Source: Clostridium tyrobutyricum DSM 2637 = ATCC 25755 = JCM 11008
GTDB lineage: Bacteria; Bacillota; Clostridia; Clostridiales; Clostridiaceae
Assembly (NCBI RefSeq): GCF_000359585.1
Contig: NZ_APMH01000037.1
Coordinates: 1-40,378, forward strand
Length of the DNA: 40,378 bases
Direction of reading: 5' to 3'
Every line of letters begins with the position of its first letter. Position 1 is the first letter of the stretch. The notes beneath the pieces are model-generated. The model worked only from the letters and a program-made list of their open reading frames with translations, was not told where the DNA came from and searched no databases. Below, one piece after another: positions 20,189 through 31,655 of this stretch. A program made the position numbers and the translations under genes.

Positions 20189-20293
20189 GTAACAGTGGAA
20201 GCAACATTGCATCGTAAGCTTCAAAACCGAGCTTTTCGTTTAGAGGCAACTTCCCATCCTCTAACACTTTACGCACAATATTTACTCTGCTAC
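20189..20293 (-). ncRNA. Tetrahydrofolate (folT/THF) riboswitch aptamer
   Basis: The minus-strand sequence carries the hallmarks of the THF riboswitch: GAGTAAA, GCGTAAAGTG, GAGGATGGGAAGTTGCCTC, ACGAAAAGCTCGG and GATGCAATGTTGCTTCCACTG. The closing P1 helix can be drawn as GTAGCAG (20293-20287) with CTGTTAC (20195-20189). Just downstream GUUACAUUAAAG can pair over 12 bp (one wobble) with CUUUAAUGUGAC in the terminator hairpin. P1 and this antiterminator share bases and so exclude each other. Folate binding would stabilise P1, free the terminator and shut off folT. Confidence 0.9.
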
Positions 20294-22724: not shown

Positions 22725-22763
22725 TTATATATAAATGTCACACTTTTTGCTCATAATCCTACA

Positions 22764-22784
22764 CACTAAACACTAAACACTAAA
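22764..22784. repeat. Three tandem copies of CACTAAA between the two T-boxes
   Basis: Exact heptamer repeated three times (22764-22770, 22771-22777, 22778-22784) in the short spacer separating the two T-box leaders. Probably replication slippage; no function seen. Confidence 0.6.
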
Positions 22785-27408: not shown

Positions 27409-28422
27409 TTACTCGTTTGAAGGATTTTCTTCAATCCAAGACATCATTCCTCTAAGTCTCTTTCCTACTTTTTCTAATTGAGTATCTGCTTCTATTCTTC
27501 TTCTAGCTTCAAGAGTTGGTCTTCCTATCTTATTTTCAAGTAACCAATCTTTTGCAAAAGTTCCATCCTGTATTTCTTTAAGAACTTTCTTCATTTCTTT
27601 TCTTACACTATCATTTATAAGTCTGTTTCCTATCTTGTAGTCACCATATTCAGCTGTATCACTTATTGAATGTCTCATTTTGCTCATGCCGCCTTCATAC
27701 ATCAAGTCAACAATCATCTTCATTTCATGGAAGCATTCAAAGAACGCATTTTCAGGAGCATATCCAGCTTCAACTAATGTATCGAAACCTGCCTGTATAA
27801 GGGAACAGATTCCTCCGCAAAGTACTGCTTGCTCACCAAATAAATCAGTTTCAGTTTCTATCTTGAAGGTAGTGTTCATAACCCCTCCTCTAGTTCCGCC
27901 AACTCCTTTTCCATAAGCTAATGCATAATCTTTGCCTTTTCCTGTATAATCCTGATATACTGCATACAAGCATGGAACTCCACCGCCTTCAGTATATTGT
28001 TTTCTAACTATATGACCAGGTCCTTTAGGTGCTATCATAAGTACATCTATATTTTTAGCTGGTACTATCTGATTGAAGTGAATATTGAATCCATGTGAAA
28101 ATAATAATGCATCTCCATCTTCTAGGTTATCTCTTACACTTTCTTCATATATCTGTTTTTGTTTTTCATCTGGTAAAAGCATTGCTACAAGTTGTGCCTG
28201 CTTAACTGCTTCAGCTACTTCATATACCTTAAATCCATAGTCTTCAGCCTTTTTCCAGGATTTGCTACCCTTATATAATCCGATTATTACATCAAGTCCA
28301 CTATCTTTTAAATTTAATGCTTGAGCATGTCCTTGGCTACCAAATCCAAGTACTGCTATTTTCTTTCCTTTCAAAAGGTCTAAATTTGCATCCTCATCAT
28401 AATAAACTTTTAATGGTTCCAT
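27409..28422 (-). CDS. ilvC: Ketol-acid reductoisomerase
   Basis: IlvC isomerises and reduces acetolactate or acetohydroxybutyrate to the dihydroxy acids used by IlvD. The 337-residue class I enzyme has the Rossmann motif GFGSQGHA (26-33) and the cofactor loop GLYKGSKSW, whose serines are usual for NADPH binding. The Mg ligands are Asp193 and Glu197 in ETDLFGEQ, and the knotted C-terminal domain is intact ([17 protein letters not shown]). The start has an AGGAGGAA site. It leads the ilvC-ilvB2 operon under a valine T-box. Confidence 0.97.
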
Positions 28423-28601: not shown

Positions 28602-28820
28602 TAAAAAAAGCAACCAACATTCTCTGCTTTGGGGCGAGAAGTCTGGTCGCGCGGTACCACCCAATTTTTTTACTTAAAGTAATAACGGTTTCTACCGATA
28701 AAGCCTACTCAAAGTTCAGCTCATAACTCCAGGGCTACCTTCAATAGCTATATTATGAGATTTCACCAAAATCCTCATTCTCTAAAAAATAGTCACTATC
28801 TACTCTTCCCTATCAATGTT
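28602..28820 (-). ncRNA. T-box leader of ilvC-ilvB2 (Val, GUA)
   Basis: Stem I starts near 28820 (AACATTGATAGGGAAGAGTA). The specifier aligned with the other leaders is GUA at 28738-28736 (in GAAGGTAGCCCTGGAG). The T-box is TGGGTGGTACCGC (28663-28651), and a terminator with GCGACCA / TGGTTGC arms ends in a T-run. It reads tRNA-Val charging. It lies 180 bases upstream of ilvC. Confidence 0.92.
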
Positions 28821-28854
28821 TTTTACATTCTACAATTTATGCTAATTAATACAA

Positions 28855-28883
28855 ATTATAATACTATAAACCAATCATGTCTA
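28855..28883 (-). promoter_or_regulatory. Sigma-A promoter of the ilvC T-box transcript
   Basis: Minus strand TAGACA (28883-28878), 17 bases, TATAAT (28860-28855). Confidence 0.7.
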
Positions 28884-29176
28884 TAAATAATGATTTACTT
28901 CAAATCGTATATTTAGATTGAACAAATTACTTAATTAATATTTAGTGTATGTGACGATAATAATACCTTATGAATAGAATGTCAATAGTTTTTTGATTTT
29001 TTTGTTACAAAAGCTTGTTTTTAATATAAATAAAACTCACTTTAAAAAACAAGTTTTATTTATATTAAATTTAATTTTCTTTATTTATATTAACAAAATG
29101 CTATATTTTTAGATGTTTTATTATTGATATATTGTTTTTAGAAAGTAATTTAATGAAAATTACTTATTTGTTGTAT
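28884..29176. other. AT-rich divergent spacer with an 18-bp inverted repeat
   Basis: No gene is visible. The one structured element is an 18-bp perfect inverted repeat TTTAATATAAATAAAACT / AGTTTTATTTATATTAAA (29020-29037 and 29052-29069) with a 14-base loop that contains a second, overlapping pairing (CTTGTTTT with AAAACAAG). It lies between the divergent promoters of the ilvC T-box and the orphan T-box. Confidence 0.6.
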
Positions 29177-29205
29177 TTGACATAAATAATTTTTTATAGT
29201 ACTAT
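29177..29205 (+). promoter_or_regulatory. Sigma-A promoter of the orphan T-box
   Basis: TTGACA (29177-29182), 17 bases, TACTAT (29200-29205). The -35 is perfect. Predicted transcription start is near 29212, seven bases before Stem I. Confidence 0.75.
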
Positions 29206-29218
29206 TAGTTCCAATAAA

Positions 29219-29432
29219 AAACTATGATGGAGATAAGTAAACAAAATATGCTTTCAGAGAATTGGGCATGGTGGAAACCAATAAGCTAAAATTGTTGAAA
29301 ATCACTCCTGAGTTGCAAACTGAAAATAAAAGTAAGTTACGCCGGCACAGCCGTTATCTATAATTAAGTAATACTTTGGGTGGTACCGCGGCAAATAGAC
29401 GCCCCATTAACTGGGAGTCTATTTGCCTTTTT
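29219..29432 (+). ncRNA. Orphan T-box leader (Ile, AUC) with no downstream gene
   Basis: A complete plus-strand T-box. It has Stem I AACTATGATGGAG, an AGAGAATTGGGC segment, specifier AUC at 29301-29303 (GAAAATCACTCCTGAG), T-box TGGGTGGTACCGCG (29377-29390) and a perfect 11-bp terminator GGCAAATAGAC / GTCTATTTGCC (29390-29400 and 29417-29427) followed by Ts. The next 2.2 kb on this strand is antisense to topB, whose stop codon is only about 50 bases away. Its parts are all intact, and it is very like the ilvD leader around the specifier (both isoleucine). Confidence 0.92.
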
Positions 29433-29483
29433 ATATTCTACTTTTAATTAATTGTACAATAAATATTTAGTGTATATTTAATA

Positions 29484-31655
29484 TCATTTATTCTGATTTT
29501 TAAATTTGCTGAGTGCATCTGCCAGTGCAGAATTAATAGGTTCTTTGTTTTCATTATGCATTTTGTTCATATATTTTGAAATTTCTCTTTTATTTAACTT
29601 ACTTTCACTTTTGTTAAATCTTTTTTTAAAAGATGCTAATTTTTCTCTAAAACCACAATTAGAACAAACATAAATTTTACCATCCCCATGTCCGCGGAGT
29701 TCCATTTTCTTATGACATTCCGGACATCTTGCATTGGTAAACACTGCAATATTCTCTCTATAACCGCAATTTCTATCCTGGCACACTAGCATTCTGCCGC
29801 GTTTTCCTTTAACCTCCAGCATATACTTTCCACAATTAGGGCATTTTTCCCCAGATAGATTGTCATATTTAAATTTACTATTACTACTACTAACATTATT
29901 AACTAATTCAACAGCATATTCTCTCATATCCCTTAAAAATACTTTTGGGTCTTTTTTCCCTTTACTAATCTCATCCAATGTCTTTTCCCATTTCGCAGTT
30001 AATAATGGTGATTTTAGTCCTCTAGGTACTAAATTTATAAGTTGTTTTCCCTTTGAAGTAGGTATTATTTCCTTGCCTCTCTTTTCTAAATAAAACATAT
30101 TGAAAAGCTTATCTATTATATCCGCTCTTGTAGCAACAGTTCCAATTCCTCCAGTTTCTCCAAGCGTATCCGCATATTTTTTATCCATTTTTACATACTT
30201 CTGAGGATTTTCCATAGCTGATAATAATGAGGCTTCATTAAACCTTGGTGGAGCCTTTGTTTGAAGTTTTTCCAATTCTATTGAAATGACATCAATGGAG
30301 TCTCCTCTTTTTGGAACAGATGAATGATCTTCTACATTTTGTTTGTTATTTACATAGATTTTTTTCCATCCAAGATTTTTTGGTGCATTTCCCTTCCAAG
30401 AAAAAATTTCTTTACCTATATTGGCTTTTATAGATGTCTCTATATATTCATAAGGTGGAAGCATAACAGATATAAATCTCTTAACTACTAAATCATATAT
30501 ATTTCTTTCTTCCAAACTCAAACGGGATATGGGAATACTTTCTTCAGTTGGTATAATAGCATGATGATCTCCTATTTTACTATTGTCAACGAAATTTTTA
30601 TTTGCATTTATCCCATTTTTTAATATTTCATTTATAAAAATTCCATATTGACTTAAGCATATAGATTTTAGACGATCTTTCAGCGTGCCAACTATATCAG
30701 TTGAAATATATCTTGAATCAGTTCTAGGATATGTTAATATCTTATAGTTTTCATATAATCTTTGCATTATAGACAATGTCTGTTTAGCTGAATATCCAAA
30801 TAATTTATTACCATCCCTCTGAAGTTCTGTTAAATCATATAGTTTTTGAGGAAACTGCTTTTTACAATGTGTATTTACTTCTATAATTGTACATTTTTGA
30901 TTTTTCAGATGATTCGCTAGATTATTAGCCTTTTCTCCTTCAAAAATATTACTATTACCTTTACTATCTGTCCATTTCAAATTAAAATATTTAGTTTTTG
31001 CTTCTACATTATAGTAATCTTTAGGTTTGAAATTATTTATCTCTTCTTCCCTATTAACTATCATTGCAAGAGTAGGTGACTGCACTCTACCTGCTGTAAG
31101 TTGAGCATTATATTTGCATGTCAGGGCACGTGTAACATTTAAACCTATAATCCAATCCGCTTCAGCTCTGCACTTTGCTGCATCATATAAATAATCATAT
31201 TTTGAAGATGACTTTAAATTTCTAAATCCATCATTTATAGCTTTTTGAGTTTGAGAAGAAATCCATAATCTTTTTAATGTTTTTTTAATATGTGCCTTTT
31301 CTATTATCCACCTTGCTACAAGTTCCCCTTCTCTTCCTGCATCTGTAGCAATAACTATTTCTGATATATCTTTTCTATTCATCTGTGATTTGACTATATT
31401 AAACTGCTTTCCAGTCTGCTTTATGACTACCAATTTAAGATATTTAGGAAGCATGGGTAAATCTTCCATATTCCAACTTTTGTATTTTTGATCATAAACC
31501 TCTGGGTCAGCTAATGTAACCAAGTGTCCAAGGGCCCATGTCACTACATATTTATCTCCTTCAATATATCCTCCATTTTTTCTATTACAGTGAAGTACTT
31601 TTGCTAAATCTTTTCCTACAGAAGGTTTTTCTGCCAGCACTAATATTTTGCTCAT
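29484..31655 (-). CDS. topB: DNA topoisomerase III
   Basis: A 723-residue type IA topoisomerase that relaxes and decatenates DNA through a 5'-phosphotyrosine intermediate. The Toprim domain opens with LVLAEKPSVGKDLAKVL and has the acidic site ATDAGREGE (residues 103-111). The active-site tyrosine is Tyr309 in ILTYPRTDSRYIS. After the core come two C-terminal zinc-ribbon segments (CPNCGKYML...CQDRNCGY and CPECHKKM...CSNCGF) and a basic tail. It starts with a GAAAGGAA site and stands alone; I see no good terminator after its stop. The orphan T-box points into its 3' end. Confidence 0.96.
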   Translation of the reverse strand: MSKILVLAEKPSVGKDLAKVLHCNRKNGGYIEGDKYVVTWALGHLVTLADPEVYDQKYKSWNMEDLPMLPKYLKLVVIKQTGKQFNIVKSQMNRKDISEIVIATDAGREGELVARWIIEKAHIKKTLKRLWISSQTQKAINDGFRNLKSSSKYDYLYDAAKCRAEADWIIGLNVTRALTCKYNAQLTAGRVQSPTLAMIVNREEEINNFKPKDYYNVEAKTKYFNLKWTDSKGNSNIFEGEKANNLANHLKNQKCTIIEVNTHCKKQFPQKLYDLTELQRDGNKLFGYSAKQTLSIMQRLYENYKILTYPRTDSRYISTDIVGTLKDRLKSICLSQYGIFINEILKNGINANKNFVDNSKIGDHHAIIPTEESIPISRLSLEERNIYDLVVKRFISVMLPPYEYIETSIKANIGKEIFSWKGNAPKNLGWKKIYVNNKQNVEDHSSVPKRGDSIDVISIELEKLQTKAPPRFNEASLLSAMENPQKYVKMDKKYADTLGETGGIGTVATRADIIDKLFNMFYLEKRGKEIIPTSKGKQLINLVPRGLKSPLLTAKWEKTLDEISKGKKDPKVFLRDMREYAVELVNNVSSSNSKFKYDNLSGEKCPNCGKYMLEVKGKRGRMLVCQDRNCGYRENIAVFTNARCPECHKKMELRGHGDGKIYVCSNCGFREKLASFKKRFNKSESKLNKREISKYMNKMHNENKEPINSALADALSKFKNQNK

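Follow-up and report, generated by a model that had tools for sequence, protein, structure and literature searches.

A conserved isoleucine T-box without a gene, and the possible pairing of its read-through RNA with the leader of the divergent operon

Introduction

Several described regulators come close to the system considered here. SreA of Listeria is a trans-acting riboswitch whose terminated form acts on prfA, and Rli55 is a riboswitch-gated RNA that sequesters a protein. FasX-type small RNAs pair with the extreme 5' end of an mRNA and are not riboswitch-gated. Riboswitches can also act in antisense. The available passages of PMC9943018 describe a SAM riboswitch of this kind at ubiG-mccBA in C. 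acetobutylicum and a cobalamin riboswitch at pocR in Listeria, and the survey counts 107 antisense against 15,851 sense T-boxes.

The window, which is the whole stretch of 40,378 nucleotides from Clostridium tyrobutyricum that was analysed, carries a T-box that no gene follows. It resembles a transcriptional-class T-box riboswitch (RF00230) in having a promoter, a stem I with specifier, a UGGN bulge and an antiterminator/terminator, but it differs from the usual T-box riboswitch in that no coding region comes after it and in its proposed output, an RNA pairing with the leader of another transcript. The noncoding RNA as riboswitch output would be shared with SreA and Rli55, neither of which senses tRNA, and binding to the very start of the target RNA would be a trait in common with FasX-type small RNAs, whereas here the output would be riboswitch-gated. 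As in the antisense-acting riboswitches described in the available passages of PMC9943018, the riboswitch is located 3' of a convergent gene. However, those riboswitches overlap the convergent gene that they regulate. In the loci considered here the convergent gene is not always the same, and the RNA is proposed to act on the divergent transcript, reached via a repeated segment. Some of the loci reported below may be in the supplementary tables of PMC9943018. No T-box acting through a separate RNA was found in the literature searched, a search that subscription papers mostly lay outside, and none appears in the available passages of PMC9943018, PMC11477304, PMC7778990, PMC9045289, PMC5640608, PMC5951919, PMC7583486 and PMC12452182.

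Results

An intact isoleucine T-box with no gene behind it

The original prediction placed an intact isoleucine T-box without a gene at 29177-29484(+). That observation is confirmed and the range is correct; the valine T-box of ilvC and the complementarity set out below were not part of the prediction. The geneless T-box and its neighbours comprise the following features.

29177..29205 (+): promoter of the geneless T-box, with TTGACA at 29177-29182, a 17-nt spacer and TACTAT at 29200-29205
29215..29409 (+): leader of the geneless T-box, with an AUC specifier (isoleucine) at 29301-29303 within GTTGAAAATCAC and a UGGU bulge at 29381-29384
29390..29432 (+): intrinsic terminator and T-run, with an outer stem of 11 pairs (29390-29400/29417-29427), an inner helix and the T-run at 29428-29432
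29428..29477 (+): read-through segment, proposed partner of the 5' end of the ilvC transcript, with a 14-nt exact core at 29462-29475 and a second block at 29428-29440 (blocks placed by eye)
29484..31655 (-): topB (TIGR01056, 764 bits), convergent neighbour, thought incidental; its stop at 29484 is about 50 nt beyond the T-run
28957..28985 (-): ilvC promoter, TTGACA-17-TATTAT with its first base at 28985 and a predicted start at about 28950, conserved in ten loci of the genus
28891..28950 (-): initial 60 nt of the ilvC transcript as predicted, proposed as the target, with the exact 14-nt core at 28937-28950
28627..28825 (-): valine T-box of ilvC (118.8 bits), GUA at 28738-28736
27409..28422 (-): ilvC, ketol-acid reductoisomerase (TIGR00465, 458 bits; NF004017, 551 bits), divergent neighbour

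The RF00230 match at 29215-29409(+) reaches 117.1 bits against a gathering score of 93 (cmscan, E 1.9e-25) and spans model positions 1-219, and the predicted transcript start lies at about 29212. The element thus shows a full-length model match, a specifier codon with a UGGN bulge, and an antiterminator/terminator alternative. Its terminator folds at -23.3 kcal/mol (z -6.5; equally stable shuffles 0/200). No cis-regulated same-strand gene was found 3' of it in the window or in the relatives described below, with one possible exception (L097). The genome itself has 32 T-boxes at E <= 0.001, and for 31 of them a same-strand ORF of 90 aa or more starts, by mechanical start calls, 16-365 nt past the T-box match; the sole exception is 29215-29409(+).

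Further T-boxes in the window precede an ilvB (two, leucine, CUC) and ilvD (one, isoleucine; 90.6 bits, slightly under the gathering score), their specifiers read by eye from alignments, and a THF riboswitch lies at 20191-20291(-) with 78.3 bits. Just 5' of the ilvC valine T-box there is a second promoter-like site at 28855-28883(-), TAGACA-17-TATAAT (11/12), from which ilvC RNA without the proposed pairing segment could start.

The geneless T-box is conserved in two genera

The segment was searched in 59 relatives, 12 of which belong to the same genus. A geneless orthologue with promoter and terminator, divergent from ilvC, occurs in nine of these 12 (G001, G002, G003, G005, G006, G007, G008, G009 and G011), and in all nine the next gene past it is on the opposite strand. 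This convergent gene is topB in G002, a membrane-type ORF of 312-314 aa in G001, G003, G005, G006 and G008, and other ORFs in G007, G009 and G011; in G008 topB is the second gene, behind the membrane-type ORF. Mean column identity from stem I to the T-run is 83% across the ten genus loci. The aligned -10 element of the nine relatives, read by eye, is TATAGT in seven and TATATT in two, and the terminator stem has changed bases on both sides with pairing kept. A small downstream gene was rejected as the output, as none of the ten genus loci has, past the terminator, an ORF of at least 12 codons with an SD-like motif. In L032 and L033 two tandem ilvC copies adjoin the geneless T-box.

The three genus relatives without the geneless T-box (G004, G010 and G012) have a single isoleucine T-box directly on ilvC (specifiers read by eye from alignments). 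By contrast, the ilvC T-box carries the valine context GAAGGUAGCC in all 11 ilvC loci that have a geneless T-box.

In a family-wide search, 36 of 206 genomes matched at E <= 1e-12 with three candidates scored per genome. Thirteen of the 36 belong to the genus of the window, and nine of the 23 outside it were inspected (G013, G015, G150, G151, G152, G161, G190, G191 and G193), so that the spread given here is a lower bound. In a second genus, g48, three of four genomes matched and contain five more geneless T-boxes, three in G193 and one each in G190 and G191. Together with the window and the nine genus relatives this makes at least 15 loci. Each of the 15 has another operon on its divergent side: ilvC at 11 loci, cimA at two, and ilvD and an MFS gene at one each. 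In g48 these neighbours are ilvC (L099), ilvD (L096; TIGR00110, 812 bits), an MFS transporter (L097; PF07690) and citramalate synthase (L100, TIGR00977, 686 bits; L098, assigned by likeness of its start to L100). Four of the five g48 T-boxes have an opposite-strand gene next downstream. At L097, by contrast, a plus-strand ORF begins roughly 200 nt beyond the terminator (+468 counted from the match start), which leaves a convergent downstream gene at 14 of 15 loci.

The AUC specifier and GGTGGTAC, which holds the UGGN bulge, are present at all 15 loci, and all eight of the other 14 geneless T-boxes that were run through cmscan pass the RF00230 gathering score. In six of the 15 the antiterminator reads UGGUACAGCG, not UGGUACCGCG (L031, L032, L033, L098, L099 and L100). 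With this degree of preservation, a function of the geneless T-box is almost certainly conserved.

The read-through segment is complementary to the start of the divergent transcript

One short motif occurs both at the ilvC start and beyond the terminator, and it turned out to belong to a longer match. Promoters resembling TTGACA-17-TATNAT precede the divergent transcripts at all 15 loci (the script searched for TTGACA), and the first 60 nt of these transcripts are predicted to pair with the 90 nt after the T-run, the pairing beginning no later than the fourth nt of the predicted RNA. The part of the RNA that read-through alone would produce is about 60-90 nt long, and its complement lies in the opening ~60 nt of the divergent transcript.

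In a 15 x 15 matrix of predicted duplexes, cognate pairs average -31.4 kcal/mol against -20.4 kcal/mol for non-cognate pairs, and 0/200,000 permutations were as low; the same was seen with 12 representatives (0/200,000), and six representatives gave p 0.0014, kinship being only partly removed in all of these comparisons. After row and column means are subtracted, the cognate residual is negative at 15/15 loci. With 35-nt leaders, the ten genus loci give -21.3 against -18.3 (p 0.0005). When each locus was scanned on both strands (449-1183 scan windows per locus), the read-through segment ranked first in 11 of 15 scans and second in two more. As a negative control, ordinary divergent T-box pairs of genus g4 (three pairs, six comparisons) gave z from -2.4 to +1.5 and nothing comparable.

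The pair in the window itself is among the weakest, with -18.8 kcal/mol and z -2.0; 39/1183 other scan windows are equal or better, and its segment is the fifth of the 15 for its own leader. With the 35-nt leader z is -3.0 and 11/1190 scan windows are as good. The L038 pair is weak too (20/1183, z -2.6). In both loci, the longest exact complement is 14 nt, a length reached in 0/400 shuffles. The longest exact run is also unusual in L032, L033, L037 and L096 (6, 3, 1 and 9 of 400 shuffles), borderline in L097 (20/400) and L098 (31/400), and unremarkable, at 75-330 of 400, in L031, L034, L035, L036, L039, L099 and L100. What speaks for the predicted pair in the window is the 14-nt exact core together with orthology.

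Other complementary stretches exist. The 5' flank of the ilvC valine T-box (28820-28832) is complementary to 29428-29440. Farther past the terminator, the ilvC leader has another complementary stretch, at +370 to +490 in L031, +480 to +600 in L032 and +423 to +543 in L037, counted from the promoter. Between the two ilvB T-boxes of the window, 22762-22784 holds ACACTAA three times, the ilvB RNA reading UUUAGUGU. This site pairs with the ilvC RNA start at -28.5 kcal/mol, more strongly than the geneless T-box's own segment. Among scan windows other than the geneless T-box's own, the region between the ilvB T-boxes ranks first against the ilvC leader in L031 (-27.4) and in the window (-28.5), and second in L032 and L033, which like L031 have similar sites between their ilvB T-boxes. 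Such a site could bring a leucine signal to ilvC, or hint at another role of the repeat. Finally, G004, G010 and G012 also conserve the ilvC leader start although they lack the geneless T-box, and it is therefore partly kept for other reasons.

Across the loci the complementarity is conserved and follows the target, as a base-pairing RNA would require, and from these comparisons we regard the pairing as very probably real.

Target leaders without a recognisable stem I and the probable sign of the effect

The leaders of L096 (ilvD), L097 (MFS), and L098 and L100 (cimA) keep GGGTGGTACCGCG and a terminator and have no recognisable stem I. They score only 22.6-32.4 bits to RF00230 against the gathering score of 93; the L098 alignment skips the stem I part of the model, and absence in L096, L097 and L100 was judged from sequence. 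That antiterminators persist with no sensor beside them suggests an external source of sensing, for which the divergent T-box is the obvious candidate.

Putting these observations together, we consider it fairly likely that the geneless T-box is an isoleucine-gated noncoding RNA that acts on the leader of its divergent neighbour, probably as an activator. With charged tRNA-Ile, the RNA would end at the terminator. With uncharged tRNA-Ile, RNA polymerase would read through the terminator and add the pairing segment, which would anneal to the 5' end of the ilvC leader RNA. An isoleucine signal would thereby reach an operon whose own T-box reads valine. Given real pairing, the sign of the effect seems more probably positive, and activation could come about by favouring antitermination in the target leader. 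A switch within the target leader alone was considered and rejected as the folds are inconsistent: no consistent switch was found in the leader folds, in which the first 60 nt reach the T-box region with probability >= 0.66 in only four of eight leaders.

A specific version of this reading, which we put forward tentatively and think somewhat unlikely, divides sensor and switch between two RNAs. Stem I of the geneless T-box would hold tRNA-Ile, the read-through segment would tether it to the leader, and the tRNA acceptor end would stabilise the antiterminator of the target in trans. In g48, a sensor available in trans would have allowed the leaders to lose stem I, with three pairs in one genome keeping private pairing sequences. 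Activation and this division are both favoured because the target leaders named above keep the antiterminator without a sensor of their own. Against the division, the ilvC targets have a full T-box of their own, and the tRNA acceptor end would have to quit the first antiterminator.

The opposite sign is improbable. A repressing antisense RNA would pair at the target 5' end and cause cleavage or block the target. The predicted duplexes are long, reaching up to 50 pairs, and long RNA duplexes are the usual substrate of double-strand RNases, which would suit such an RNA. However, isoleucine synthesis would then be shut off during isoleucine shortage, and the leaders without stem I would have nothing else recognisable to turn the operon on.

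RNA pairing or a DNA motif

Instead, the repeated segment could be an operator in the DNA, bound by a regulator of BCAA genes, with the T-box as a bystander. ATTTAGTGT-like repeats do occur at the start of ilvC, beyond the terminator and in the interval separating the ilvB T-boxes, with similar ones at the ilvD and MFS loci. At the cimA loci, however, the sequence is another one on both sides: the cimA leaders are unlike the ilvC leader and the adjoining segments have changed along with them, which argues against one fixed protein-binding DNA motif. The matches run to ~60 nt, and differences between leader and segment are of the G-U-tolerated kind in 31 cases and of the non-tolerated kind in seven, the cases not being independent. 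In the genome of the window ATTTAGTGTATRT has five hits against four for the reversed control. G193 is instructive, as each of its three geneless T-boxes (MFS, cimA and ilvC) matches its own neighbour best, with -28.8, -42.1 and -34.9 for own-neighbour pairs and -13.2 to -19.4 for the other pairs. The distal copy is without the ilvC promoter, and the homology therefore begins at the transcribed part; a second minus-strand ilvC promoter at this copy was rejected, the conserved TTGACA/TATTAT being absent there by eye. These patterns favour RNA pairing over a fixed DNA operator, which we rate as quite improbable.

Discussion

The meaning that emerges differs from the one first envisaged: a geneless isoleucine T-box has been conserved, and the RNA that it would yield on read-through is complementary to the leader of the divergent neighbour. 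An RNA with its own role was among the possibilities raised at the outset, and it gains from this complementarity across loci. A recent loss of the regulated gene, by contrast, does not fit a geneless form that recurs in nine of 12 genus relatives and in three of four genomes of a second genus. In the comparison of relatives that was suggested for the ilvC-topB interval, nine of the 12 are geneless; gene-bearing forms appear in g4 and g43, and G004, G010 and G012 have T-boxes directly on ilvC.

That the element is a functionless relic of gene loss or inversion, its repeat the fossil of an old leader, is highly improbable. Comparable T-boxes do precede genes in g4 and g43 (G150, G151 and G161), namely a 561-aa ORF that looks like ilvD by eye in G150 and ilvC in G161, and G013 has tandem T-boxes before ilvC. 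A gene-bearing ancestor of the geneless T-box is plausible because of these T-boxes, and the regulated gene may have moved, as was suggested. However, T-box, promoter and terminator are intact in 15 loci of two genera, and the complementarity tracks the target. Antisense control of topB, which read-through would enter after ~50 nt, is scarcely credible, as topB has no evident link to isoleucine and follows directly at just two of the 15 loci, those of the window and of G002; the T-box does point into topB by neighbourhood in the window, but the convergent gene differs between relatives, which removes antisense to topB as a conserved role. Titration of tRNA would not explain the conserved complementarity past the terminator.

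If the pairing RNA operates as proposed, a riboswitch that senses tRNA would have come to gate a regulatory RNA, and two amino-acid signals would converge on one operon, one through its own T-box and one through that of its neighbour. It would also be a natural case in which riboswitch sensing and switching are divided between two RNAs, and the orthogonal pairing sequences from a single genome could be copied into engineered circuits. T-boxes without a gene would then not be elements to write off as relics.
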